Assembly (NCBI RefSeq): GCF_009937995.1
Contig: NZ_AP021881.1
Coordinates: 62,001-126,000 of the forward strand
Length of the DNA stretch: 64,000 nucleotides
Direction of reading: 5' to 3'
Source: Sulfuriferula nivalis
GTDB taxonomy: Bacteria; Pseudomonadota; Gammaproteobacteria; Burkholderiales; Sulfuriferulaceae
The position numbers and the translations under genes are program-made. Below are positions 6,960-60,449 of the stretch, one piece after another; within the stretch, counting starts at the first letter, position 1; each line of letters begins with the position of its first letter. The notes under the pieces are model-generated. The model ran no database searches. It was not told the origin of the DNA and saw nothing but the letters and a program-made list of their open reading frames with translations.

Positions 6960-8095
6960 TGAATAGCGGTGATTACACATATATATGGCAAGCCAGTGAT
7001 TGGCCGAACTGGCATTATGATCTGGCTGCGCTGGCTGGATCTATGGCTGAGGCCAGTCGCGCCCAGGGTTTGTTGATGGGGCGTTTGGCTGATGTGGGCA
7101 TGGCATTGCGCGATCAGGCTAGCCTTGCTGCGCTAACTGAAGACGTGGTCAAGACCAGCGAGATTGAGGGTGAGATAGTTAGTGTCGATTCCGTGCGCTC
7201 TTCCATCGCTCGGCGTCTGGGTGTGGACATCGGTGCCTTGGTTCCGGCGGATCGTCACGTTGAAGGTGTGGTTGAGATGGTGATGGATGCTACTGTTAAC
7301 TGTATGGCACTAGTCACCCAGGAGCGCCTGTTCGGCTGGCACGCGGCACTTTTTCCTACTGGCTACTCGGGTCTTGCTCAGATCAACGTGGGTGCCTGGC
7401 GTGACGATGGTAGTGGTCCTATGCAAGTGGTGTCTGGACCTATCGGGCGGCAGCGAGTGCATTTCGAAGCGCCGCCTGCTGAAAACTTGAATATCGAAAC
7501 AGAACGATTTGTGGACTGGATCAATGGCTCATCTAATGAATCCCCGCTGATCAAGGCTGGCCTGGCTCACCTGTGGTTCGTGACTTTGCATCCATTCGAC
7601 GATGGTAATGGACGTATCGCCCGCGCCATTGGTGACCTGTTGCTGGCTCGCGCTGATGGCAGTCCGCAGCGCTTTTACAGTTTGTCGGCGCAAATTCAGC
7701 GGCAGCGCAAAGTCTATTACGAAATTCTGGAGCGGACTCAGAAGGGGGCTATGGATGTTACTGAGTGGCTGGCCTGGTTTCTCGACACTTTGCATCAGGC
7801 TGTCAATCAAGCACAACTTACACTGGATGCTGTGCTAATAAAAACTCGCTTCTGGCAGCATTGGGCGACAACGCCGCTGAATGAGCGGCAAGTGAAGTTG
7901 CTCAATCGGCTGCTTGATGGTTTTGACGGTAAACTCACCAGCAGCAAGTGGGCGGCAATCGCCAAGTGCTCACCAGATACTGCCCTGCGCGATATTAATG
8001 ATTTACTGGTGCGCGGCATTTTGTTAAAAACGGATGCAGGTGGGCGCAGTACCAGCTACGAGTTGAATAATCCAGGTCGAACAGAGCTGAGTTGA
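6941..8095 (+). CDS. Fic-family protein with N-terminal inhibitory motif (probable AMPylator)
   Basis: 384 residues from GTG 6941 (GGAG 4 bases ahead) or 378 from ATG 6959. Fic enzymes transfer AMP from ATP to hydroxyl groups of target proteins. The core motif HPFDDGNGRIAR starts at residue 217 and is intact. The N-terminal YIWQASDWPNWHYD segment matches the DUF4172-type domain often found ahead of Fic. At about residues 72-77, TSEIEG fits the inhibitory (S/T)xxxE(G/N) helix of class II Fic proteins, in which the Glu blocks productive ATP binding. The C-terminus looks like a winged-helix domain (SSKWAAIAKCSPDTALRDI). A HigA-like gene follows 90 bases later. Confidence 0.9.
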   Translation: MEHNLRMNSGDYTYIWQASDWPNWHYDLAALAGSMAEASRAQGLLMGRLADVGMALRDQASLAALTEDVVKTSEIEGEIVSVDSVRSSIARRLGVDIGALVPADRHVEGVVEMVMDATVNCMALVTQERLFGWHAALFPTGYSGLAQINVGAWRDDGSGPMQVVSGPIGRQRVHFEAPPAENLNIETERFVDWINGSSNESPLIKAGLAHLWFVTLHPFDDGNGRIARAIGDLLLARADGSPQRFYSLSAQIQRQRKVYYEILERTQKGAMDVTEWLAWFLDTLHQAVNQAQLTLDAVLIKTRFWQHWATTPLNERQVKLLNRLLDGFDGKLTSSKWAAIAKCSPDTALRDINDLLVRGILLKTDAGGRSTSYELNNPGRTELS

Positions 8096-50542: not shown

Positions 50543-53122
50543 ATGTCCACGCTCGTTATTGTAGAATCGCCTTCCAAGGCAAAAACGCTTAATAAATACT
50601 TAGGTGCCGATTACGTAATCCTTGCTAGTTATGGTCACGTTCGTGATCTCGTGCCGAAAACGGGTGCGGTAGATACGGATAACGAATTCGCCATGAAATA
50701 TCAGCTCATAGAACGTAATGAGCGGCATGTCGACGCCATATTGCGCGCAGCAAAAAAAGCTGACCGCATCTTGCTTGCAACCGATCCGGATAGAGAGGGT
50801 GAAGCGATTGCTTGGCATCTGGCAGAGATACTGGCGGAGAAAAAAATCACGCCGAAGAAGCCTGTCTCTCGGATAGAGTTCCACGAAATCACTCAAAGTG
50901 CGATACAGCATGCGGTGGATAATCCGCGTGAAATTGCTATGCCGCTGGTTGATGCACAACAGGCACGGCGGGCATTGGATTATCTGGTCGGGTTTAATTT
51001 GTCACCGCTACTATGGCGCAAAATCAGCCCGGGGCTATCCGCAGGACGCGTACAAAGTCCTGCGTTGCGGCTGATAGTCGAGCGGGAACTTGAGATTGAG
51101 AAATTTATTGCGCGTGAATACTGGAGTATCCACCTCGATAGTCACAAAGCCAGCCAGCCGTTTTCTGCGCGTCTGGTACAGTTCGCGGGTGAGAAACTGG
51201 AGCAATTCAGCGTGCCCACTGTGGACGCGCAACAGAACATACTTGACCAACTGGCACCGTTTAACACCGGTACAGTCACTCGCGTCGAAAAGAAACGCAA
51301 ATCACGCAATGCCGCGGCGCCATTCACGACCTCTACGTTGCAGCAGGAAGCCGTGCGCAAGCTGGGTATGACCACTGATCGTGCCATGCGTACCGCGCAA
51401 CAGCTCTATGAAGGTATAGATACCGGTAGTGGTGCTGTGGGTTTAATTACCTATATGCGTACTGACTCGGTGAATTTGGCACGTGAAGCGATAGAAGATG
51501 TGCGTGGCTATATTCAGAAGAATTTCAGCGCGGATTACTTGCCAGCTGCACCTGTGTATTTCCGTAACAAATCTAAGAATGCGCAAGAAGCACACGAGGC
51601 GATACGTCCGACAGCGATTGCACGTACGCCTGATTCTGTACGTCAGTTCCTGACTTTAGATCAGGCGCGGCTGTATGAAATGATATGGAAGCGTACCCTC
51701 GCCTGCCAAATGGCGCCTGCACAATTTGATACTGTAAGTCTGGATATTGCAGTAGGTAGTCCTGCCAACTTGTTCCGTGCCAACGGGCAAACCTTGGTGT
51801 TTCCGGGTTTTATTGCGGTCTATCAAGAACATCAGGATGATGCAGCGGAAGAAGATGAGGCGAAACTGCCTGTGTTGGTTGAGGGTGAAACGATATCGGT
51901 TGATAATTTAAGCGGCGAGCAGCATTTTACCCAGCCACCACCGCGTTACACAGAAGCCAGTCTGGTAAAGACCTTGGAAGAATATGGTATTGGTCGCCCT
52001 TCAACTTACGCCAGCATTATCTCTACCTTGCAAGACCGAGAATATGTTGAGCTGGATAAGAAACGTTTCACGCCTACGCCCACAGGCCGGTTGGTCAATT
52101 GTTTCTTAACTACGCATTTTACATCTTACGTAGATTATGATTTCACCGCAAAACTGGAAGATAAGCTAGATGATGTGGCGAATGGTGAGATGAAGTATCT
52201 GCCTCTGCTACATGAGTTCTGGGACGGCTTTTCCAGCACGCTGACTGCCAAAGCGGATGTAGAGCGTGGCTGTCCGATAGAAGATGAGCCCTGCCCTAAG
52301 TGTGGCGCAAAATTATTTCTGCAAGCCAGCAAGCGCGGCTTGTTTATCGGTTGTTCTGGCTATCCTACTTGCGACTATACGCGGCCATTACATGGCGGCA
52401 ATGAAGAAGGTCCTGTGGTGCTGGGCAGCGATCCTGCCACTGGCGAAGATATCTTATTGCTGAACGGGCGTTATGGTTGGTACGTTCAGGTAGGTGCAAC
52501 GCCAGAAGATAAAAAAATCAAGCCACGTCGCGCATCCTGGCCAAAAACTGTGCCGCACGAAGCAGCGGATTTACCTACCGCATTGCGACTGTTATCGCTG
52601 CCGCGTGAGGTGGGTACGCATCCAGATACCGGGTTGACTATTGTTGCCAATATTGGACGATTTGGCCCTTATTTGCAGCATGACGGCAAATTCAAGTCCG
52701 TCCCTAAAGATGACGATGTTTACACTATCGCTTTACCTAGAGCATTGGAAGTATTGCTGATGGAGCGTGCACCTCGTGCAGGCGCGCCTGTAGGTAAGCC
52801 ATTAGGTAATCATCCTGAAGATGGCAAGGCAGTTACCTTGAACGAAGGTCGTTATGGCTGGTACGTCAAACATGGTAGTGTAAATGCCACCATACCTAAA
52901 GATACCAAGCCAGATGAAGTAACTCTGGAAATCGCATTACCTTTACTTGCGGATCGCGCCAGTAAAGGTAAACCAGCGCGCAGGAAAGCGGCCAGCAAAA
53001 CGACAGCAGCGAAGAAGCCCGCAGCAACTAAAAAAGTCGCTGCTAAAAAGCCAGCTGCTAAAACCAGTGCAGCTAAGAAACCTGCTGTCAAGAAAACCGC
53101 AACTAAAAAAGCAGTCGCCTGA
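50543..53122 (+). CDS. topA: DNA topoisomerase I
   Basis: 859 residues. It relaxes negative supercoils by transient single-strand breaks. The Toprim domain (LVIVESPSKAKTLNKYLG, DPDREGEAIAWHL), active-site Tyr304 in GLITYMRTDS, and a CPKCGAKLFLQASKRG plus CSGYPTCDYT four-Cys zinc finger are seen. Two further topoisomerase C-terminal repeats follow (NGRYGWYVQVG and EGRYGWYVKHG). The tail (about 815-859) is a Lys/Ala-rich repeat (KKPAAKK-like) typical of betaproteobacterial TopA and may contact DNA or RNA polymerase. Confidence 0.97.
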   Translation: MSTLVIVESPSKAKTLNKYLGADYVILASYGHVRDLVPKTGAVDTDNEFAMKYQLIERNERHVDAILRAAKKADRILLATDPDREGEAIAWHLAEILAEKKITPKKPVSRIEFHEITQSAIQHAVDNPREIAMPLVDAQQARRALDYLVGFNLSPLLWRKISPGLSAGRVQSPALRLIVERELEIEKFIAREYWSIHLDSHKASQPFSARLVQFAGEKLEQFSVPTVDAQQNILDQLAPFNTGTVTRVEKKRKSRNAAAPFTTSTLQQEAVRKLGMTTDRAMRTAQQLYEGIDTGSGAVGLITYMRTDSVNLAREAIEDVRGYIQKNFSADYLPAAPVYFRNKSKNAQEAHEAIRPTAIARTPDSVRQFLTLDQARLYEMIWKRTLACQMAPAQFDTVSLDIAVGSPANLFRANGQTLVFPGFIAVYQEHQDDAAEEDEAKLPVLVEGETISVDNLSGEQHFTQPPPRYTEASLVKTLEEYGIGRPSTYASIISTLQDREYVELDKKRFTPTPTGRLVNCFLTTHFTSYVDYDFTAKLEDKLDDVANGEMKYLPLLHEFWDGFSSTLTAKADVERGCPIEDEPCPKCGAKLFLQASKRGLFIGCSGYPTCDYTRPLHGGNEEGPVVLGSDPATGEDILLLNGRYGWYVQVGATPEDKKIKPRRASWPKTVPHEAADLPTALRLLSLPREVGTHPDTGLTIVANIGRFGPYLQHDGKFKSVPKDDDVYTIALPRALEVLLMERAPRAGAPVGKPLGNHPEDGKAVTLNEGRYGWYVKHGSVNATIPKDTKPDEVTLEIALPLLADRASKGKPARRKAASKTTAAKKPAATKKVAAKKPAAKTSAAKKPAVKKTATKKAVA

Positions 53123-53143
53123 TTATTAACCTCAATGCTCAAT

Positions 53144-53200
53144 CAGCTCTGCCATAATCTCCAAGCAGCATTCAGCGATGATGGCAGAGCTGTGATTTTT
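53144..53200 (+). terminator. Probable terminator after topA
   Basis: A perfect 12-bp stem (CAGCTCTGCCAT at 53144-53155 with ATGGCAGAGCTG at 53181-53192) has an unusually long 25-base loop and is followed by GTGATTTTT. It lies 22 bases after the topA stop. Confidence 0.65.
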
Positions 53201-53292
53201 ACTTGGTGTTGTTTTTGAGATTATTAAGGGCGTATTTTATGGTGGATTTCGCGTAAAATTACGTTTTTATTACTCGCCTTACTGAACACGCT

Positions 53293-54216
53293 ATGTCCGC
53301 AATTGCCGCAACTGTATTAGACCAACCCCAAATCTGGGAAGCTCAAGCTGATTTCAAAGAATATATGTCGGCGGTCAATCCGTCCATGCCTAAAATCGAG
53401 GTGGTTGGTTATCCCAATACCCTGCACGCGGATGGCCCAACACGGCTGATTCCATTTGATTTGTCCGCAAGTTTGCAAACCCGATATGCTGCGACTACAC
53501 CTAATCTTTATGCGGGCTATCTTCGTATTTGTGCTGGCGAGCAATTGCAAACTGATTTTATTGCTGCGTCACAGATGTACTTTGTTATTAGCGGCGCAGG
53601 TAGTACCGAGATGGATTTTGGCACGATATTTTGGAAGACTGGTGACTTGTTCACTCTGCCCTCGATCAAGTCTGCCTTGCATCAAGCCAGCACAGATACC
53701 GTGCTGTTTTGGGTGAATGATGCGCCATTGATGCGCTATCTGGGCGTGACACCAACTGAGCAACGTTTTGAGCCTGTACTTTACACACAAGAGCGCATTA
53801 CTGAGGAGCTCAATAAAGTTCGTGCTATGGGTGAGGATAGAAATCGTGTTGGCATATTGTTGTCTAACCCACATTTCCCCTCGACGATGACATTGACTCA
53901 TACTTTGTGGTCGCTTTATAACATTTTGCCGAAAGGTGTAGTGCAAAAGCCACATAGACATAACTCGATAGCAATTGATCATTGTGTATCCGCAGGTGAA
54001 GATACTTATACGCTCATAGGTAAAGATGTGGATGCTGATGGCAATATTGTGAACCCTATCAAAGCCATGTGGGTTCCTGGCGCTACATTTATCACGCCGC
54101 CAGGCTGGTGGCATTCACACCACAATCATTCTGGACAGGATGCTATCGTTTTGCCTATACAGGATGCAGGTTTGGTGATGAATATGCAGGTGCTGGATTT
54201 TCAGTTGGTGAAATAA
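53293..54216 (+). CDS. Double cupin-domain protein
   Basis: 307 residues. Two cupin folds: the first around 70-150 (LRICAGEQLQTDFIAASQMY) and the second around 215-300 with metal-ligand histidines in KPHRHNSIAIDHC and WWHSHHNHSGQDA. The overall pattern resembles gentisate 1,2-dioxygenase-like bicupins. The reaction is unknown. The first cupin lacks an obvious His triad, so only the second may bind metal. It is monocistronic. Confidence 0.75.
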   Translation: MSAIAATVLDQPQIWEAQADFKEYMSAVNPSMPKIEVVGYPNTLHADGPTRLIPFDLSASLQTRYAATTPNLYAGYLRICAGEQLQTDFIAASQMYFVISGAGSTEMDFGTIFWKTGDLFTLPSIKSALHQASTDTVLFWVNDAPLMRYLGVTPTEQRFEPVLYTQERITEELNKVRAMGEDRNRVGILLSNPHFPSTMTLTHTLWSLYNILPKGVVQKPHRHNSIAIDHCVSAGEDTYTLIGKDVDADGNIVNPIKAMWVPGATFITPPGWWHSHHNHSGQDAIVLPIQDAGLVMNMQVLDFQLVK

Positions 54217-54430
54217 TGTTGGGTCAAGCGCGGCTTAACTTAATGTGTGAATCTGCTTGTTAAATTGTATACAATTATCTTTAATTTGTATGAAATTAGT
54301 GGTAATCTTTCATTCACCATTACAAAAAAGTGGTTATTGTGGTGGTCATAACTGATTCGTTTTTTACGGCTCATGTTTTGGGAAAAATTATTAATAAAAC
54401 AGCTAATTTTAATTTGCGAGAGGGATGATC

Positions 54431-54784
54431 ATGGATTTGACGAGTGCAGTTGGTAAGCATGCTGAATGGAAAACAAAATTCCGTAGTGCGATTACTAAAA
54501 AAGAAGAGATGGATGCCGCAACAATCGCCAAAGATAATTGTTGTGAATTAGGTAAGTGGTTGCATGGCGAAGCCAAGGCACAATTTGGAGCGTTAACGAG
54601 TTATAAAGAATGTATTCAAAAGCATGCGGCGTTTCATACTGAGGCGGCTAAAGTTGCTGCGGCGATTAATGCGAAAAAATTTACTGAAGCAGAGGCAATG
54701 CTGGGTAATGGCACAGGATATACAAAAGTGTCGGGTGAAGTAGGTGTTGCAATTATGCATCTAAAAAAAGAAGCGGGTTTGTAA
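54431..54784 (+). CDS. Stand-alone CZB zinc-binding protein
   Basis: 117 residues from ATG 54431 (GAGAGG seven bases upstream). The chemoreceptor zinc-binding (CZB) pattern is complete: His10, Cys38 in CELGKWLHG, His65 and His69. CZB domains usually sit at the end of chemoreceptors or diguanylate cyclases, where zinc binding modulates activity. Here the domain is alone and soluble, suggesting a free zinc- or oxidant-responsive module that may bind a partner in trans. The tail (AEAMLGNGTGYTKVSGEVGV) is a helical extension. Confidence 0.85.
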   Translation: MDLTSAVGKHAEWKTKFRSAITKKEEMDAATIAKDNCCELGKWLHGEAKAQFGALTSYKECIQKHAAFHTEAAKVAAAINAKKFTEAEAMLGNGTGYTKVSGEVGVAIMHLKKEAGL

Positions 54785-54822
54785 TTAAAGATTTCCTGTA
54801 GATTCTCGCTACTGACCCAATT

Positions 54823-54858
54823 AACACCTAAGAGCCGTTGGTTTTTAGGTGTTTTTTA
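54823..54858 (+). terminator. Rho-independent terminator after the CZB gene
   Basis: A 9-bp stem (AACACCTAA at 54823-54831 with TTAGGTGTT at 54845-54853) and 13-base loop is followed by TTTTATT, 39 bases after the stop. Confidence 0.85.
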
Positions 54859-54971
54859 TTACAAATGGGTAGTTTGGCAATTGCTAGATATGGCGCAGCG
54901 CATGTGATCTGTATGCAAATTGATCATGCGTATGTAGGCGGTATGGAAATATAAATTGTTCAGGGTGGTGG

Positions 54972-55021
54972 GATGGGCGGAATCGAACCGCCGACCTATG
55001 GGTTATGAATCCATCGCTCTA
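54972..55021 (-). repeat. Left attachment site: displaced 3' half of tRNA-Met
   Basis: Identical over 50 bases to 60380-60429. It holds the anticodon loop, variable region and T-arm of the tRNA but lacks the D-arm and 5' acceptor strand, so it cannot be a functional tRNA. Beyond the identity the acceptor 3' strand reads CATCCCACC instead of CATCACCACCA, consistent with decay after displacement. The rest of the gap (55022-55307) is AT-rich, with no gene. Confidence 0.92.
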
Positions 55022-55094
55022 CTAAATATAACCTTACTATTCAATTGGTTAGACATTAACCAACAGCCAATTATAACCTAATGAATGATGTTAG

Positions 55095-55121
55095 TGTGAA
55101 CAGAATGTGAATGAAATAGGT
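55095..55121 (+). repeat. Candidate left arm-type integrase site
   Basis: 27 bases with 23 identities to 60307-60333. Both contain TGTGAACAG followed two bases later by TGTGAATG, two half-sites 11 bases apart, and end ATAGGT. One copy lies 73 bases inside the left att repeat, the other 46 bases inside the right. Direct orientation. Confidence 0.6.
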
Positions 55122-55307
55122 AACACTAGTTGTTCCAAGGTAGGGCTATCGGCAAGGGAATGAAGGGGTGGGTAGGGGCAAATGTGCACCTGCTTATTAT
55201 CTACATAAGGCACCTTGATATTTTTTATAATATTTTTAGATTTCTCAAAAGATATAACTTTGTAAGTTATTGATTTGTATAGGTTGCTCTTTGTTATGTA
55301 ATATAAC

Positions 55308-55649
55308 TTATTGATTTGTATTGTTATTTATTTCGCTTTTTAGCTTTTCATTTTCAAGGCGCAACTTTTCCATTTCTAACTCTCTCATTTGTATTAATTG
55401 CTGATTCTGTGCTGCTGTTTGTTGGTTCTCAAATTGCTGTTGCTGAAGTTTTTGATAGGCTGTACTTGAATAGACCATACCTTGTAAGCCTTGAGCATTA
55501 TTATTATTGTAGGAACATGCCTGCTGGCAATACTGATATGTTGAGCCTTGCCCAATACAATTATTCTGGCATGTGTAATCCACATCGGCATAACAAATGG
55601 AAGAGATGAACAATGCCGCAAATAGAATTAGGGTGCTTTTGGTGGTCAT
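55308..55649 (-). CDS. Exported coiled-coil protein of the element, 113 residues
   Basis: AAGGA ahead of ATG 55649. A signal peptide (to about CYA, residue 21) is followed by a Cys-rich patch (DVDYTCQNNCIGQGSTYQYC plus QQACSY) with four cysteines that could form two disulfides. A Gln-rich linker and a charged coiled coil (IQMRELEMEKLRLENEKLKS) complete it. It is the last gene of the - strand operon. Possibly a periplasmic or surface protein; I do not recognise a family. Confidence 0.65.
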   Translation of the reverse strand: MTTKSTLILFAALFISSICYADVDYTCQNNCIGQGSTYQYCQQACSYNNNNAQGLQGMVYSSTAYQKLQQQQFENQQTAAQNQQLIQMRELEMEKLRLENEKLKSEINNNTNQ

Positions 55650-55704
55650 GATGTGTCCTTCATATTTTACATGTGATAAAGGTTAACAATTTAATTTATA
55701 AATG

Positions 55705-56040
55705 TTATTTGCTGGTATTGTCTTTTAAAAACTGCATGTGAGTTGTCCCAATTTCCCCTGTGTCATCTAGCACATCCATTTCTTCCCATGCGCTTGGTTT
55801 TCCTGGTAAATCGCTAAATTGGGTTTGTTGCCATATCCGACCTTTTTGAGTATCTATTAAAAATGTATCAGCCCTCATCTGTGGATTAAATACTATTTGG
55901 AATCTTCCAATTCCAGTTGATGTAGTGGTGGTTGGTAAAGTAGGGGTTATTGGTAGGGGGGTGGGTGGTGCTTTAGTGGTGTTGTCACACCCAGTCACCC
56001 CAAGGGTTAGTAGCAATATTATGATTTTCAAATCTCTCAT
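55705..56040 (-). CDS. Small lipoprotein of the element, 111 residues
   Basis: AAAGGTC ahead of ATG 56040. The N-terminus MRDLKIIILLLTLGVTGC is a clear lipoprotein signal with lipobox VTGC at 15-18. A Pro/Thr-rich linker (PPTPLPITPTLPTTTTS) leads to a C-terminal domain of about 65 residues (GRFQIVFNPQMRADTFLIDT then QKGRIWQQTQF) that looks like a small beta-rich periplasmic domain. No family is recognised. It lies 15 bases after the polymerase-like gene. Confidence 0.65.
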   Translation of the reverse strand: MRDLKIIILLLTLGVTGCDNTTKAPPTPLPITPTLPTTTTSTGIGRFQIVFNPQMRADTFLIDTQKGRIWQQTQFSDLPGKPSAWEEMDVLDDTGEIGTTHMQFLKDNTSK

Positions 56041-56055
56041 GATATGACCTTTGAG

Positions 56056-57456
56056 TTAAGTTAAAAATGGGGTAAATCCAGTTACCTTATAATAAGCATT
56101 AATGATTGTTTCATGTAGTAAATGTTTATCTTCCTTTTTAGCAATAAAGCTATCATGAACTGTAAGAACAGGCTTGCCTAGTCTGGTAAATTCTTTGATT
56201 ACAGCTAAGGCTATTTCACTCTCAAGAAACATCATAGTGCTGCCTACTTCTCCATTAAAGAAAGGTATTTGTGGATGCTTAGCTATAAGCTTCTTTATTA
56301 ATTCTGGGGCTTCTTCATTTACTCTTTTAGAGATGTTTTCTTTTCTGATGATTCGGGTAAGCCACCCCTGATTTTTCCCTTCATTGGTTGCATTGATTAA
56401 TGAGCTAGAAATCTTCTTGAGTGCCTTTCTGTGATCTTCTCCTGTGTATCCTTCTATATAGTAAGGGTCTACCTCTTCTATCCATTCCTCATTACTTAGA
56501 TCGCCCCAATAATCAATGCCTAATGAATGATAGACCAAGATAGGAAATGTAGCCCTTATGTCTATCTCTGTAACCTCTTGACCATCAAGCAGTATGGTAA
56601 GCCGCGCTTCTTTAGAAAAGCCCTGCCATAATCCACCAGACAGCCTACCGCCTCTATCCCAAGAGCCATTGTTAAATACCCTTCTTACATATTTATCATA
56701 AGGGGTGAATTCACCTTTAAAAATGTCTCCCTTTTTTCCTGTTATTTCAGCAGGTAAGCTGATGATAGTAGTGTCTAGAAGCTCTTGATACTTTTCTAAG
56801 AGCCTCTGACACTCTGCAATATGACTGGGTAGTCTTGCTACTGTTATAGGTTGTTTATCGGTATCCCTTAACTCTATCCTTGGTCTATCCTTCGCTGACT
56901 TGTATCTGTGCTTGTCTTTAGCTAAATTAACTAAATCTACTGCTTCTATTAACTTCGCTGTTGCTCTAAACCTTGTCTGTTTTCTCTTATCTGGATTCCA
57001 ATGTTGATTACCTTTAACTAACTCACAATAACCATTTTCTTCTAATCTCTGTATTGCCTTGCTTAACTGTTCAGCCTTTAACCCTAAGGTGTAATATCTG
57101 CCACCTTTATCCCAGTCATTTTTATTTAAGCTTACTGTTTGCCATTTGGTTGGGTTTTTCTCAAAGACTTTGATTGAACTTATAACTAGGGTTCTAATTA
57201 CTGTTCTTGCCTTTCCTTGCTTCGCTCTTGTGCTTAACTCTCTGACTGTATAACATTCCTTCATTACCTTGTTGCATACACCTAGAAGATGTTTATTATC
57301 TGTTACTAAGTACTTGTAAAAGCCTTGGCTGTTGTCGACCCCTACAGAAGGCTCTAGGATGCTCTCTGTTGCATTTAACTCATATTCTGATATGATTGTA
57401 TAGACTTCTTCATTTAAATCGATTTTAGAGCTTCCTATGGCTTCATCATAGTTCAT
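56056..57456 (-). CDS. Putative replication protein with family-A-like polymerase palm
   Basis: 466 residues. About residues 127-150 look like a winged helix (LKAEQLSKAIQRLEENGYCE). The C-terminal half shows, in order, a motif A-like Asp299 (EVTEIDIRATFPILVYHSLG), DPYYIEGY, an O-helix-like Arg343-x3-Lys347 (RKALKKISSSLIN) and motif C-like His434-Asp435-Ser436 (VLTVHDSFIAKKE). HDSF recalls T7 RNA polymerase and VHDE the DNA polymerase A family. Tyr and Gly at the end of the O-helix are not kept. No 3'-5' exonuclease motifs are seen. It may prime or copy element DNA. It overlaps the previous gene by 11 bases. Confidence 0.6.
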   Translation of the reverse strand: MNYDEAIGSSKIDLNEEVYTIISEYELNATESILEPSVGVDNSQGFYKYLVTDNKHLLGVCNKVMKECYTVRELSTRAKQGKARTVIRTLVISSIKVFEKNPTKWQTVSLNKNDWDKGGRYYTLGLKAEQLSKAIQRLEENGYCELVKGNQHWNPDKRKQTRFRATAKLIEAVDLVNLAKDKHRYKSAKDRPRIELRDTDKQPITVARLPSHIAECQRLLEKYQELLDTTIISLPAEITGKKGDIFKGEFTPYDKYVRRVFNNGSWDRGGRLSGGLWQGFSKEARLTILLDGQEVTEIDIRATFPILVYHSLGIDYWGDLSNEEWIEEVDPYYIEGYTGEDHRKALKKISSSLINATNEGKNQGWLTRIIRKENISKRVNEEAPELIKKLIAKHPQIPFFNGEVGSTMMFLESEIALAVIKEFTRLGKPVLTVHDSFIAKKEDKHLLHETIINAYYKVTGFTPFLT

Positions 57457-58186
57457 ACATTTGCCTCATGAAGTCATGGGTGCCTAAACCTAGCATGTCG
57501 CATAAATCCTTAGCTTGTTCTCTGGCATAAGCCCGCGCTTCTTCAATGTGCCTGTTGTATTCTCCTATGCTGTGAAAGTATGGATAGATAATGTTCGGTA
57601 TGCTTATGGTAAATCTTGAGCCTGACATTTTGGCTTTGAAACAAATTTCTTTAGACCAGTTGCTCCTAGCTGTCGGAAAACCATACCCATTAACACCAAC
57701 AGGATTTACCATATATGGTAGCCCCCCTTTGACTTCCTCCTTGAAACTGCCAGTCCATAACCACCTCATCCACCCTTCATTGTGCATTAGGTTCTCACCA
57801 ACTAAGGCTAAATCAATAATATAAACATCCTCTAGGGTTGACTTGGAATCATCTTCATCAGCAAGGCAATAAATAAGAAAAGATGACTGATATTTCCCTT
57901 CTAGTATTTTGTATATTTCTTTATCTCTTAGAACAAAATCGGTAGGGTAGTATTTTTTATTTCTATTCCCTCTTGCTCTGTAAGCTAGCCATATCTCTAC
58001 ACCATCCAATATCATTAGGGCATCTATACCATCTTTCATATCTTGGGAGTCTGATGCGCAAACGAATTCAGGGTGTTTGCAGTAGGGCACCAGCCCCCTC
58101 CCATGCAGCATGTGATAGGCGCTAGTATTTTGTGCGGAAATGTATTTGTCAGACCAGCTCCTTCTGTCTGGACTATAGCTGCTCAA
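57446..58186 (-). CDS. Unknown element protein, possibly nuclease-like, 246 residues
   Basis: TTG 58186 overlaps the HTH gene stop (TTGA). Not recognised as a family. Residues 52-72 read DGIDALMILDGVEIWLAYRA followed by R72: a short loop with Asp55, a beta-strand with Glu64 and basic residues (Arg70, Arg72). That arrangement resembles the PD-(D/E)xK nuclease core, although the usual Lys is not there. Later there is a conserved-looking PYMVNPVGVNGYGFPTARSN and a helical C-terminus. Co-transcribed with the polymerase-like gene, so a role in replication or recombination is plausible but inferred. Confidence 0.5.
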   Translation of the reverse strand: MSSYSPDRRSWSDKYISAQNTSAYHMLHGRGLVPYCKHPEFVCASDSQDMKDGIDALMILDGVEIWLAYRARGNRNKKYYPTDFVLRDKEIYKILEGKYQSSFLIYCLADEDDSKSTLEDVYIIDLALVGENLMHNEGWMRWLWTGSFKEEVKGGLPYMVNPVGVNGYGFPTARSNWSKEICFKAKMSGSRFTISIPNIIYPYFHSIGEYNRHIEEARAYAREQAKDLCDMLGLGTHDFMRQMYEL

Positions 58187-58380
58187 GGATTAGCCCTCAT
58201 CAATCGGGAAACATAATGCTGTTGCCATGATACTTCGCCTTTGCTGTTCTGATAGCCATGCTCTTTTAACCATTCTGCTATTTGGTACTGACTAAGCCCT
58301 TGAGAATGAAGCTCTCTGATAACAGCCATAATGTCTAATAACCAGATTAAATGTTCTTGTAATTTTTTTATTGAATTCAC
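58183..58380 (-). CDS. Small HTH protein of the element
   Basis: 65 residues from GTG 58380 (AAGGAG eight bases ahead). VIRELHSQGLSQYQIAEWLK is a helix-turn-helix of the type found in recombinase-associated and resolvase-like DNA-binding domains, followed by GEVSWQQHYVSRLM. It is first in the operon behind a strong promoter with a palindromic -10 region, so it may regulate itself or serve as a replication initiator. Both roles are inference. Confidence 0.65.
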   Translation of the reverse strand: MNSIKKLQEHLIWLLDIMAVIRELHSQGLSQYQIAEWLKEHGYQNSKGEVSWQQHYVSRLMRANP

Positions 58381-58467
58381 TTGCTCTTCTCCTTTAGTTG
58401 TTGTATAATCTTTTTAATCACTTAATTGATGATGTATTTATTCGCCTTTTTCAAGTGTAATATAACT

Positions 58468-58496
58468 ATTATATCATCAAAAGCTTATGTTGTCAA
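58468..58496 (-). promoter_or_regulatory. Consensus sigma-70 promoter of the element operon
   Basis: On the - strand TTGACA (58496-58491) and TATAAT (58473-58468) are separated by exactly 17 bases, about 90 bases before GTG 58380. Around the -10, TATAATAGTTATA is a near palindrome (5-base arms around TAG), a likely operator. The rest of 58381-58587 is AT-rich and holds no gene. Confidence 0.85.
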
Positions 58497-58587
58497 GCAT
58501 TATTTATGCCAGTTAATGTAACTCTATGATTTATTGGTAATCTATTTTTAATAGTGTCTTTAGCAAGCCTGGTGGAGTTTTTGAGAC

Positions 58588-58764
58588 ATGAAAGACAACA
58601 AAGGTTGGAAGTTTCCAGAAGCATGGCTTATAGAGGATGATGGACTGATAGTGCGGCTTATAAGAGGGGTTGCGCTTATTTTGACTTGGTTAATAATGAT
58701 TGTTGTTTTCGGTATGCCGCTATACCAATTACTTTACCCAATTATTCTTAAAAGCTATTCTTAA
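58588..58764 (+). CDS. Small membrane protein of the element, + strand
   Basis: 58 residues: MKDNKGWKFPEAWLIEDDG, then a membrane helix LIRGVALILTWLIMIVVFG and a second hydrophobic part PLYQLLYPIILK. GGAG lies about 10 bases ahead of ATG 58588. It is the only gene on this strand in the element and is divergent from the main operon. A holin- or inhibitor-like role cannot be judged. No family recognised. Confidence 0.5.
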   Translation: MKDNKGWKFPEAWLIEDDGLIVRLIRGVALILTWLIMIVVFGMPLYQLLYPIILKSYS

Positions 58765-58792
58765 AGGTAAAGGTAAAGGTAAAGGTAAAGGT
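58763..58792 (+). repeat. Hexanucleotide tandem repeat (AAAGGT)x5
   Basis: Five exact copies run from 58763 to 58792, starting in the stop codon of the 58-residue gene. It may be a slippage-prone tract or a DNA-binding iteron. Confidence 0.9.
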
Positions 58793-58808
58793 GAAGCAGG
58801 GTTCTTCC

Positions 58809-58843
58809 AAGGTAGAGCGTAGCGACACTCTTATAGTGTCTTA
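58809..58843. repeat. Element hairpin repeat, copy 1
   Basis: A constant 17-base block (AAGGTAGAGCGTAGCGA) leads into a hairpin: GACACT (58824-58829), 5-base loop, AGTGTC (58835-58840), then TTA. Copies 2 and 3 share the block but have different, still paired, stems. It lies downstream of the 63-residue membrane protein gene, where a terminator could act. Confidence 0.75.
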
Positions 58844-58857
58844 TTTACAAAGTATTG

Positions 58858-58883
58858 AATGGTTGTAAGCTTTATATAATAAA
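58858..58883 (+). repeat. 26-base direct repeat, copy 1
   Basis: 24 of 26 bases match 59108-59133 (AATGG[T/C]TGTAAGC[T/C]TTATATAATAAA). Both contain TATAAT on the + strand and a TATTATATAA on the - strand. The pair flanks the 63-residue membrane protein gene. Confidence 0.75.
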
Positions 58884-58888
58884 TCCAA

Positions 58889-59080
58889 TCACCAATCTGG
58901 CATCCAGTCTAGTGGCTCATTAGGTGGAAAGACTAGTATTATCAGCAGGAGTCCATAAAAAACACCAAGCCAGAAAAGTCTAGCGCCTCTGTCCTCATTA
59001 TTAATTCTTCCTGCTCCATACCCAGTTAGTAGTACAACAGCTATTCGGAGTGATTCCATAGCATGATATTCTGTAATCAT
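58889..59080 (-). CDS. Small membrane protein of the element, 63 residues
   Basis: ATG 59080 with GGGGG five bases upstream; the frame is open further upstream but lacks a ribosome site. One or two hydrophobic helices (LRIAVVLLTGYGAGRI and RLFWLGVFYGLLLIILVFPP). No family. It is flanked by the 26-base direct repeats. Function unknown. Confidence 0.55.
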   Translation of the reverse strand: MITEYHAMESLRIAVVLLTGYGAGRINNEDRGARLFWLGVFYGLLLIILVFPPNEPLDWMPDW

Positions 59081-59107
59081 TATTACCCCCTTATTTCTAA
59101 AGTAGAA

Positions 59108-59133
59108 AATGGCTGTAAGCCTTATATAATAAA
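59108..59133 (+). repeat. 26-base direct repeat, copy 2
   Basis: Second copy of the repeat at 58858-58883, about 28 bases before the start of the 63-residue gene on the - strand, where its TATTAT could serve as a -10 element. Confidence 0.75.
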
Positions 59134-59210
59134 GCATACAGACTTATTATTAGAAATAACTCCCTTAGTATTGCTACTTATACCTATAATAATAATAACT
59201 AGTAAGTATT

Positions 59211-59243
59211 AAGGTAGAGCGTAGCGAGACCGATGGTCTCTTA
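59211..59243. repeat. Element hairpin repeat, copy 2
   Basis: The same 17-base block as copy 1, then GAGACC (59226-59231), loop GAT, GGTCTC (59235-59240) and TTA, which is the integrase stop codon on the - strand. Three stem positions differ from copy 1 and all are compensated. Confidence 0.8.
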
Positions 59244-60260
59244 GTGAAGTCTTACAGCTAAATCAGTAGCCTTTAGATGAGTATATCTTTTAAGCATTTG
59301 TAATGTTCTATGTCCTGTTATAGATGCTACTTCCATTACATTAAATCCCTTTTCAAAGAATCTTGTTGTGGCTTCATGCCTTAGGTCATGGAAATGAAAG
59401 TTAGTTATACCCGCTCTATTTAATGCAGTATGCCAAGACCTTTTAATGCTGTCGCTTCGCTTCCAAGTATAGAATATATAGACATCCTCCGATGTCGGCT
59501 TATAGAGATTGTCGTTATCTCTTTTAATGTCTCTTGGAATGGTCTTTAGCAGGTGTATTGCATGACTAGATAAGGGAACAGTGCGGCTATCTCCATTCTT
59601 GGTGGTGTTAAGCTTTATGGTCTTATCGGTGTAATTAACCATATCCCAAGTAATAGAAAGTATCTCACCTAACCGCATACCTGTTTCCATTGCAAACTCA
59701 ACAAGGTATGGCAATAAGTGGCTATCAGACAAAGAACAAGCAGCTAACAATCTAATCAGCTCATCCCTGTCTAATCTTCTGTCTCTTGCATTGTCAGCCT
59801 TGGGCTTGCGAATATTGTCTATTGGATTAACTAAAGACATTCCCCATTCTTTCGCCGCAATTGTGAATAGGTGTGAAATGATTGCAAGTTCTGATCTAAT
59901 TGTAGAAGCGGCTATTCCAGCCTGTAATCTGCTGTCTCTATGCTTGGCAAAGTCCAAAGGTTTTAATGTATCAAGGGGCTTTTGTGCTAGTGGATTCTGT
60001 AGCCATTGATTGATTCGGATTAGCTCTATCTTAGCCCCTTTCTTACTAGGGGTTATCTCAAGCCTGTATCGGTCTAATGCTTCTGCTAGTGTGGTAGTGT
60101 TGGTTTTGGTGTAGATATGCCTAATCATTTCAGACTCAGTAATCTTGACCCACTTGTCTGCTAGGGATTTACTTGGAAATGATTTAGATGCTTGTGGATG
60201 CCCTTTCATTCTAATTTGGGCATTCCATTTACCAGAAGGAAGCTTGCGAACTGTAGCCAT
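59241..60260 (-). CDS. int: Tyrosine recombinase (phage-type integrase)
   Basis: 339 residues from ATG 60260 (MATVRKLPSGKWNAQIR); a GTG eight codons upstream is possible. Catalytic residues are complete: Arg196 (TGMRLGEIL), Lys221 (TTKNGDSRT), His291/Arg294 (HDLRHEATT), His317 (GHRTLQ) and nucleophile Tyr326 (KRYTHL). An N-terminal DNA-binding domain (about 1-50) and a SAM-like core-binding domain precede them. It would integrate and excise the element at the tRNA-Met att site beside it. No excisionase gene is recognised, although the small HTH protein could serve. Confidence 0.97.
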   Translation of the reverse strand: MATVRKLPSGKWNAQIRMKGHPQASKSFPSKSLADKWVKITESEMIRHIYTKTNTTTLAEALDRYRLEITPSKKGAKIELIRINQWLQNPLAQKPLDTLKPLDFAKHRDSRLQAGIAASTIRSELAIISHLFTIAAKEWGMSLVNPIDNIRKPKADNARDRRLDRDELIRLLAACSLSDSHLLPYLVEFAMETGMRLGEILSITWDMVNYTDKTIKLNTTKNGDSRTVPLSSHAIHLLKTIPRDIKRDNDNLYKPTSEDVYIFYTWKRSDSIKRSWHTALNRAGITNFHFHDLRHEATTRFFEKGFNVMEVASITGHRTLQMLKRYTHLKATDLAVRLH

Positions 60261-60273
60261 AATCTTACTCACT

Positions 60274-60305
60274 AAGTGGAGCACAGCGACACTGTTGGTG
60301 TCTCA
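60274..60305. repeat. Element hairpin repeat, copy 3
   Basis: A degenerate block (AAGTGGAGCACAGCGA) is followed by GACAC (60288-60292), 5-base loop, GTGTC (60298-60302) and TCA. It lies just upstream of the integrase ATG 60260, so this copy could control integrase expression rather than termination. Confidence 0.65.
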
Positions 60306-60306
60306 C

Positions 60307-60333
60307 TGTGAACAGGTTGTGAATGGCATAGGT
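60307..60333 (+). repeat. Candidate right arm-type integrase site
   Basis: Second copy of the 27-base repeat at 55095-55121 (23/27 identical), between the integrase start and the right att repeat. Confidence 0.6.
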
Positions 60334-60372
60334 GTTTAGATAAGCTAAATAGGCGCAAAGCCTTATAGGTCT

Positions 60373-60449
60373 TGGTGGTGATGGGCGGAATCGAACCGCC
60401 GACCTATGGGTTATGAATCCATCGCTCTAACCGTCTGAGCTACATCACC
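60373..60449 (-). tRNA. tRNA-Met (anticodon CAT)
   Basis: 77 bases with CCA encoded. Acceptor GGTGATG/CATCACC with discriminator A; D-arm GCTC...GAGC; anticodon loop TTCATAA; T-arm GGCGG-TTCGATT-CCGCC. The anticodon stem ATGGA/CCCAT has one A/C mismatch at the loop end. CAT could also be a lysidine-modified tRNA-Ile, which cannot be excluded by sequence alone, but the elongator Met reading is the more likely. The 3' half is supplied by the integrated element. Confidence 0.93.
60380..60429 (-). repeat. Right attachment site inside tRNA-Met
   Basis: The 50-bp identity block shared with 54972-55021. It covers the anticodon arm through the T-arm and the start of the acceptor strand, the usual target of tyrosine integrases. 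Confidence 0.92.

Follow-up and report, generated by a model that had tools for sequence, protein, structure and literature searches.

A small tRNA-Met-targeting integrative element of Sulfuriferula nivalis carries a family-A-like polymerase of the divPolA2 family

Minimal family-A polymerases named TV-Pols were described in 2008 in bacterial mobile elements that carry lambda-type integrases or resolvases (Iyer, Abhiman and Aravind, 2008; PMC2579912). They are characterized by two palm Asp residues, a hairpin with an absolutely conserved Arg, a fingers Asp together with an RxxxK motif, and a thumb formed by a two-helix coiled coil; their genes lie in the context of an integrase, a resolvase or a transposase, or of a D5 helicase, and a prim-pol activity was argued for them (PMC2579912). 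In 2024, the divPolA2 family was described from Caudoviricetes phages (PMC11348598). In that article, divPolA2 is presented as having active palm residues, no 3' exonuclease, no thumb homologous to that of other polymerases and an N-terminal domain that is of unknown kind and shows no relation to its counterparts in PolA-related RNA polymerases; the phages concerned also encode a regular polymerase, the gene context is variable, and the protein was proposed to act in phages as a repair polymerase or as an RNA polymerase. In the literature searched, the name divPolA2 was found in this article and its preprint only, and divPolA2 activity was not reported.

Integrative elements with a polymerase of their own also include pipolins, which are inserted in tRNA genes, bounded by att direct repeats, and carry a tyrosine recombinase and variable cargo including restriction-modification genes; priming was demonstrated for their family-B polymerase, piPolB (PMC7385651). 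In SCCmec, CCPol-MP primes DNA de novo (PMC7581432). CCPol-MP and PolA-SSB primases are family-A polymerases of integrative elements with an operon partner; this partner has an OB fold, a helicase is present, the recombinases are mostly serine recombinases, and the Pol domain is near that of housekeeping Pol I (PMC7581432, PMC10061031). The element described below shares the features listed for pipolins, but its polymerase belongs to family A and its priming activity is putative; compared with CCPol-MP and PolA-SSB elements, it has no recognised helicase, a tyrosine integrase and a very divergent Pol.

The window is the whole stretch of 64,000 nucleotides of S. nivalis DNA that was analysed. 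It contains an integrated element of 5408 bp (54972..60379, no strand assigned), delimited by 50-bp exact direct repeats of the 3' part of a tRNA-Met gene and by composition: G+C content is 36–39% within the element versus 47–54% for most of the flanks (1-kb windows; 50–53.5 kb and 61–63.5 kb). One att repeat (54972..55021) is a displaced copy of the tRNA-Met 3' part, and the other (60380..60429) lies within the intact tRNA-Met (cat) gene that is the integration target (60373..60449, minus strand, ARAGORN). The two copies are identical and have a period of 5408 bp, which confirms the 5.4-kb element proposed in an initial annotation of this DNA. The element encodes a tyrosine integrase of 347 aa (59241..60284, minus strand; Pfam Phage_integrase 7.7e-33 and Int_N 4.4e-6, phrog_1 2.8e-57). 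A pattern search with the 19-bp arm-type repeat TGTGAACAGNNTGTGAATG, allowing up to 2 mismatches, gave two matches in the whole window (chance mean 0.02), one near the left end (55095..55113, plus strand) and one near the right end (60307..60325, plus strand), both just inside the element. Mobility of the element is well supported.

A repeat search of the element found no clear origin; the candidate iterons that stood out were a repeat pair and a tandem array. The pair consists of two 17-bp repeats, 41 bp apart (55263..55320, plus strand), a candidate origin or control site. These AT-rich repeats, of 17–22 bp and near the att end, have a counterpart with the same 41-bp spacing in a sister element (L053, 9696-9758); of its two copies, only one is picked up when the 17-bp pattern is allowed up to 2 mismatches. 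The array, 5.8 tandem copies of TAAAGG (58762-58796), lies amid small ORFs of the element. A Pfam scan of the 8 ORFs recognised neither a helicase nor a Rep protein, and no phage structural family scored above cut-off in Pfam or PHROG within the element, which gave a weak spanin match only (E 0.008). A DNA search of plasmids for distant matches to the whole element returned 17 records, none covered to 80%; among the matches listed, for ten of the 17 records, nine fell on the integrase stretch and one on the tRNA end.

The right flank of the window aligns to other genomes of the genus and the left flank does not: positions 52900-54960 match none of the seven genus loci at the same tRNA-Met, where matching is limited to att and to the sister element's own end. 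This left-hand stretch, outside the element, has been rearranged or carries a further insertion.

The nearest relative of the polymerase, at 87% identity, is encoded in one genome of the genus (G016). This protein, used as a query against the genome collection, found one locus, L053, identical in sequence, on a Sulfuriferula MAG contig. L053 holds a 4.8-kb element that occupies the same tRNA-Met, has a repeat of 57 bp and shows the order integrase, HTH gene, middle gene, polymerase, as in the window; the same two arm sites are present, so that they mark both ends of both elements. In G003 and G017 the tRNA-Met is empty, and the flanks of the G016 element align there unbroken, bar the 57-bp shared core, an empty site that is established for the sister element and not for the window's own locus. 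The polymerase is present in two of the 18 genomes of the genus. Besides its housekeeping Pol I, G016 has a second frame, of 502 aa, that matches Pfam DNA_pol_A at 3.6e-20 (contig C7, 27799-28839); it is perhaps another mobile small Pol A.

Three genes of the window element form a tight row on the minus strand. The first encodes a 65-aa helix-turn-helix (HTH)-like protein (58183..58380), with Pfam matches below cut-off that include PA4575-like (0.00034), Recombinase (0.0044) and HTH_38 (0.031). It is 94% identical to its sister-element copy, with a dN/dS of 0.16, and would be a regulator or an excisionase. The middle gene encodes a 246-aa protein (57446..58186) and overlaps the HTH gene by 4 bp and the polymerase gene by 11 bp. 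This protein has no Pfam family, its best PHROG match has an E value of 0.34, it has no match in the phages or plasmids searched, and within the order it has matches in three of the 399 genomes searched, among them the window's own and G016. It is only 31% identical to its L053 counterpart (7327-8013) amid integrase, HTH and polymerase neighbours that are 87–94% identical, which suggests an exchange of this gene alone; dS is 3.8, versus about 0.3 for the neighbours, and the gene looks swapped or under diversifying pressure. By its position it is a candidate partner of the polymerase, as MP is for CCPol. A resemblance of its predicted topology to PD-(D/E)XK nucleases was dropped, the AlphaFold2 model being too poor (pLDDT 46).

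Two other small ORFs, exported-looking and presumably cargo, lie on the minus strand to the left of the row. The first (111 aa, 55705..56040) is lipoprotein-like, with an N-terminal signal and a lipobox-like Cys seen by eye, and is the source of the weak match, to an Rz-like spanin, mentioned above; the second (113 aa, 55308..55649) has, by eye, a signal-peptide-like start and a Gln-rich coil, and no Pfam family above cut-off. Two other elements have Adhesin_E-like (surface-adhesin protein E) ORFs, as recognised by Pfam: L053 (6492-6965, 8.4e-20) and L139 (4961-5665, 5.6e-37).

The last gene of the row encodes the polymerase, of 466 aa (56056..57456, minus strand). The initial annotation had read in this ORF motifs A, B and C of a right-hand polymerase, and they are present in the order and spacing claimed: Asp299 in EIDIRATF (motif A, codon 56560..56562), Arg343 and Lys347 in RKALK (motif B RxxxK, 56416..56430), which are 44 and 48 residues past Asp299, and Asp435 in VHDSF (motif C, codon 56152..56154), 88 residues past Lys347. 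Conservation was scored in an alignment of 43 near-full-length sequences, 33 non-phage (the 466-aa protein included) and 10 phage. The 42 relatives are 16–27% identical to the 466-aa protein, except one at 87%; fragments and truncated relatives (L023, L024, L036, L044 and L049–L052) were omitted. Two of the latter, L036 and L044, whose frames are about 340 aa long, match the family profile just to positions 270 and 295, i.e. without motif C, as a result of gene truncation or of contig ends.

R271, R285, D299, Y332, K347 and D435 are invariant (43/43), and R259, R343, S413 and H434 are near-invariant. Among the four residues singled out beforehand for such an alignment, Asp299, Lys347 and Asp435 were thus found invariant, but Arg343 was not, being kept in 41 sequences and replaced by one Ile and one gap; homologues in which Asp299 or Asp435 is not conserved, a result that was to count against a polymerase, did not appear. 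The column of D330 contains 37 Asp, 5 Glu and 1 Ala. Arg271 (codon 56644..56646, minus strand) lies in a beta-hairpin before motif A (strands 257-261 and 269-274 of the model), where TV-Pol and superfamily A are described as having their template-strand Arg (PMC2579912). Compared with the nearest relative, dN/dS is 0.21 over 463 codons of the polymerase and 0.11 for the integrase. The ORF is real and under purifying selection.

No Pfam or NCBIfam family scored above cut-off for the 466-aa protein when the 43 aligned sequences were scanned, PF00476 did not report the gene in its own genome, and a PDB sequence search with the protein gave no match. The AlphaFold2 model, built from 11 sequences, has a pLDDT of 73 and a pTM of 0.59; residues 291-300 and 411-460 form blocks of pLDDT above 90. 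Compared with the PDB by Foldseek (537 matches at E up to 10), its best 50 matches were, without exception, either family-A DNA polymerases or mitochondrial RNA polymerases, and a match to another fold was not seen among these 50. The best E value was 1.2e-4 and 30 of the 537 matches were at or below 0.001; TM-scores were low (0.24–0.36 in the best 50). In BFVD, the best eleven matches were below 1e-15; they include two proteins of Aeromonas phages and a barbavirus protein annotated as DNA polymerase (5.4e-22). Virophage Zamilon was matched through its replication protein at 8.1e-4. The predicted structure supports the palm of family-A polymerases and T7-like RNA polymerases that had been proposed.

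A tie to Pol I was also seen in sequence comparisons. The best local alignment of the family profile coincided with motif A, with the Asp in register, for 26 of 27 housekeeping Pol I proteins, which are related to one another, and with motif C for the 27th. The scores were within the shuffle range (best 1.9 bits versus a shuffle maximum of 2.8), and hhalign of the family with Pol I gave an E value of 0.033 and a probability of 1.6% over 22 columns; T7 RNA polymerase aligned with the profile in another register, and no alignment was obtained for T7 gp5. The sequence tie to Pol I appears local and faint, but well placed. In conclusion, the family-A fold of the 466-aa protein is well supported. 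A chance occurrence of the three motifs in a protein with some other fold, which would be in line with the silence of PF00476 and with the lack of Pfam and NCBIfam matches above cut-off, is hardly credible given the invariance of D299, K347 and D435 in 43/43 sequences, the structural matches and the membership in divPolA2 established below.

The protein had also been described as small, with a winged helix in front and no exonuclease. Its small size is borne out. The last point holds too, as no Pfam or NCBIfam exonuclease family matched the 466-aa protein; one of the 43 aligned sequences weakly matched the NCBIfam bifunctional 3'-5' exonuclease/DNA polymerase (E 0.015). The winged helix is plausible but weak: Pfam HTH_27 matched residues 124-168 at E 0.006, below cut-off, where the model has a helix and two strands, and the N-terminal part of the model consists of helices and this winged-helix-like part, predicted at moderate confidence. 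The family profile gave three weak matches in the PDB (E 0.59–1.3), a predicted regulator, eS19 and an ArsR-type regulator, which we take to be winged-helix folds.

Residues 52-461 of the protein matched phrog_4756, a group of unknown function, at 4e-46. A profile made from the 33 non-phage members found the phage proteins AUR84708 (2.4e-37) and Barba19A (2.7e-43; E values for one target), when two housekeeping Pol I proteins scored 0.0087 and 0.017 in the same search; AUR84708 was also found by the 466-aa protein alone, at 1.9e-5. Since both phage proteins were found by a phage-free profile, the 466-aa protein is a divPolA2. It resembles the published members by sequence, by its palm residues, by the lack of a recognised exonuclease and possibly by an N-terminal domain of unclear kind; it differs from them in setting, as these were published from phages beside a regular polymerase, whereas the 5.4-kb integrative element has no other recognised polymerase. 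In a tree of 53 rows, unrooted and with long branches, 12 phage rows were separated from 41 others by a branch with support 80/88; the 41 include eight IMG/VR contigs labelled bacterial, from a collection that holds viral and proviral contigs.

The TV-Pol features scored outside the thumb are present in the protein: the two palm Asp, a hairpin Arg (R271), the fingers D330 with RxxxK, and the integrase context; helices 182-189 and 211-229 precede the hairpin in the model (pLDDT 73). TV-Pols and the 466-aa protein also have in common a minimal family-A core, the absence of a nuclease and a location in mobile elements with an integrase or a resolvase, but a D5-like helicase was not recognised here. 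A direct sequence link was sought with phage Ma-LMM01 only, which is named as a TV-Pol holder in a text that leaves the gene unspecified (PMC2579912). A search of its genome at E up to 10 gave no match, and an unfiltered search of 354 Ma-LMM01 ORFs gave gp030 as the best match (E 0.0012, the next being 0.67), over the hairpin and motif A only. gp030 may be the TV-Pol of Ma-LMM01; it is annotated as hypothetical (NC_008562, 22746-24266; 3746-5266 in L093) and adjoins two transposases. Given the TV-Pol features seen in the protein and the gp030 match, divPolA2 and TV-Pol are probably one family. The initial annotation had known of no described element of this build. This is not supported, as part of the build had been published: TV-Pols in mobile elements were in print in 2008 (PMC2579912), and the same protein family was in print in 2024, as phage divPolA2 (PMC11348598).

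With the 466-aa protein or the profile as a query, relatives were found in 7/399 genomes of the order, 5/369 of the class and 24/398 of the phylum (own genome included). The 466-aa protein found 40 phage records, and a phage member found 290 at E ≤0.001, including ICP1 and barbaviruses; in ICP1 of Vibrio cholerae, the relatives are annotated as hypothetical proteins (e.g. HQ641347, 53935-54771). Viral contigs scanned with three single proteins gave no match, and DNA patterns (the hairpin motif and one close pair) gave ten loci in them; the locus L061 was dropped because it has no family ORF.

Gene context was compared in the window, in L053 and in 32 flanked stretches, 34 bacterial loci in all; the stretches come from 37 relative rows outside the window's genus, L024 and L049–L052 being left out as fragments, although the L052 frame has 450 aa. 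A tyrosine recombinase was present in 25 of the 34 stretches, up to 7 kb from the polymerase, and in none of 20 control stretches from genomes that hold relatives (326 ORFs, versus 557 in the 34 loci). The nine loci with no recombinase, several of which are on short contigs, were kept in the counts; some recombinases up to 7 kb off may belong to other elements. An exact repeat of at least 17 bp of a tRNA gene was found beyond the polymerase for 10 of 25 tRNAs, in 10 of the 34 loci (25 of the 26 tRNAs, across 20 loci, were used, tRNA-Phe of L053 being excluded), and 0/4 control tRNAs had any 15-bp repeat. The implied element sizes are 4.8–13.4 kb. Other genes of these elements vary and include DNA methylases, an OLD-like ATPase, an HNH nuclease and surface-adhesin-E-like proteins, as well as resolvases in L140, L146 and L149. 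In nine delimited elements, no helicase family was found among the 40 of 75 ORFs (at least 80 aa) scanned with Pfam; the other 35 comprise the polymerases, seven whole or partial recombinases and ORFs of up to 178 aa.

We infer the biochemical role of the 466-aa protein as follows, with a probability of roughly 0.6: the locus is a small site-specific integrative element, the A-family counterpart of a pipolin, in which a primase-polymerase initiates copying of the circle after excision. The integrase would cut the element out as a circle and insert it at tRNA-Met, with the arm sites and the HTH protein setting the direction of recombination. The polymerase, the HTH protein and the variable 246-aa protein are probably made from one transcription unit. 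Acting as a primase-polymerase, the 466-aa protein would lay the first DNA strand on single-stranded element DNA, its winged helix and hairpin Arg holding the template and its two Asp the metals. Host replication proteins would provide the helicase and bulk synthesis, a borrowing proposed since the element has neither a recognised helicase nor a recognised Rep protein. The copies would let the element persist extrachromosomally and then re-integrate. Such working would resemble that of a pipolin or of the SCC CCPol-MP module, with a different polymerase branch.

The residue at motif A +5 bears on the choice of substrate. This position is occupied by the steric-gate Glu in Pol I and by Gly in T7 RNA polymerase. 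It is His, Phe, Tyr, Glu or Met in 38 of the 43 aligned sequences, Asn in one and Gly in four; a residue other than Gly in 39/43 would favour dNTPs over a T7 RNA polymerase-like use of rNTPs. It is accordingly unlikely that the protein is a single-subunit RNA polymerase which, like the T7 or mitochondrial enzymes, synthesizes RNA primers or transcripts of element or phage genes, even though four sequences do have the Gly, mitochondrial RNA polymerases occupy ranks 23, 29, 43 and 45 among the best 50 of the 537 PDB matches, and this function is one of the two raised for divPolA2 in 2024. A tyrosine recombinase at 25/34 bacterial loci suits element maintenance better than transcription, and the published description of the divPolA2 N-terminal domain sets it apart from PolA-related RNA polymerases (PMC11348598).

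Another proposal is that the polymerase is cargo, with an accessory function in repair, gap filling or defence outside the element's own replication. The regular polymerase and the variable gene context of divPolA2 phages, reported in the 2024 article (PMC11348598), are in its favour, as are restriction-modification-like or OLD-like genes in several elements; we nevertheless consider it improbable, as polymerase and tyrosine recombinase recur together in delimited elements when the other genes change, and in PADLOC the 466-aa protein had no match, the only hit for the 43 sequences being that of one relative to a type II restriction enzyme model (E 0.0043). There is very little chance that the element is decaying and its polymerase a relic or only a DNA-binding protein: its tiny size, the lack of a recognised helicase or Rep protein and the truncated relatives L036 and L044 could be so explained, but the dN/dS values of polymerase, integrase and HTH gene, the complete catalytic set and the identical att copies speak against it.

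The preferred reading, a self-copying element with a primase-polymerase, can be extended, more tentatively, to the whole family. Pseudomonadota would then have a broad class of integrative elements that copy themselves with a helicase-free family-A primase-polymerase, A-family counterparts of pipolins, and the element in the window would be one of the smallest; TV-Pol and divPolA2 would be one family, and phage divPolA2 a side branch from such elements.

This kind of element is already known in outline. What is new, as far as searched, is that an integrative-element protein belongs to divPolA2, that this family and TV-Pol are likely to be one, and that many tRNA-targeting elements with no recognised helicase seem to be built on it. 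Two descriptions, both of polymerases that have been little tested, TV-Pol (2008) and phage divPolA2 (2024), are thereby joined, and divPolA2 acquires a clear genomic setting, that of small tRNA-targeting integrative elements. If the protein does prime and copy DNA with no helicase but the host's, it would count as a very small primase-polymerase of family A, of use for understanding how primer independence is gained or lost in family-A enzymes and for DNA amplification tools. The family is widespread, found in phages also, and hardly studied, and an element of about 5 kb offers a cheap test bed for divPolA2 function.
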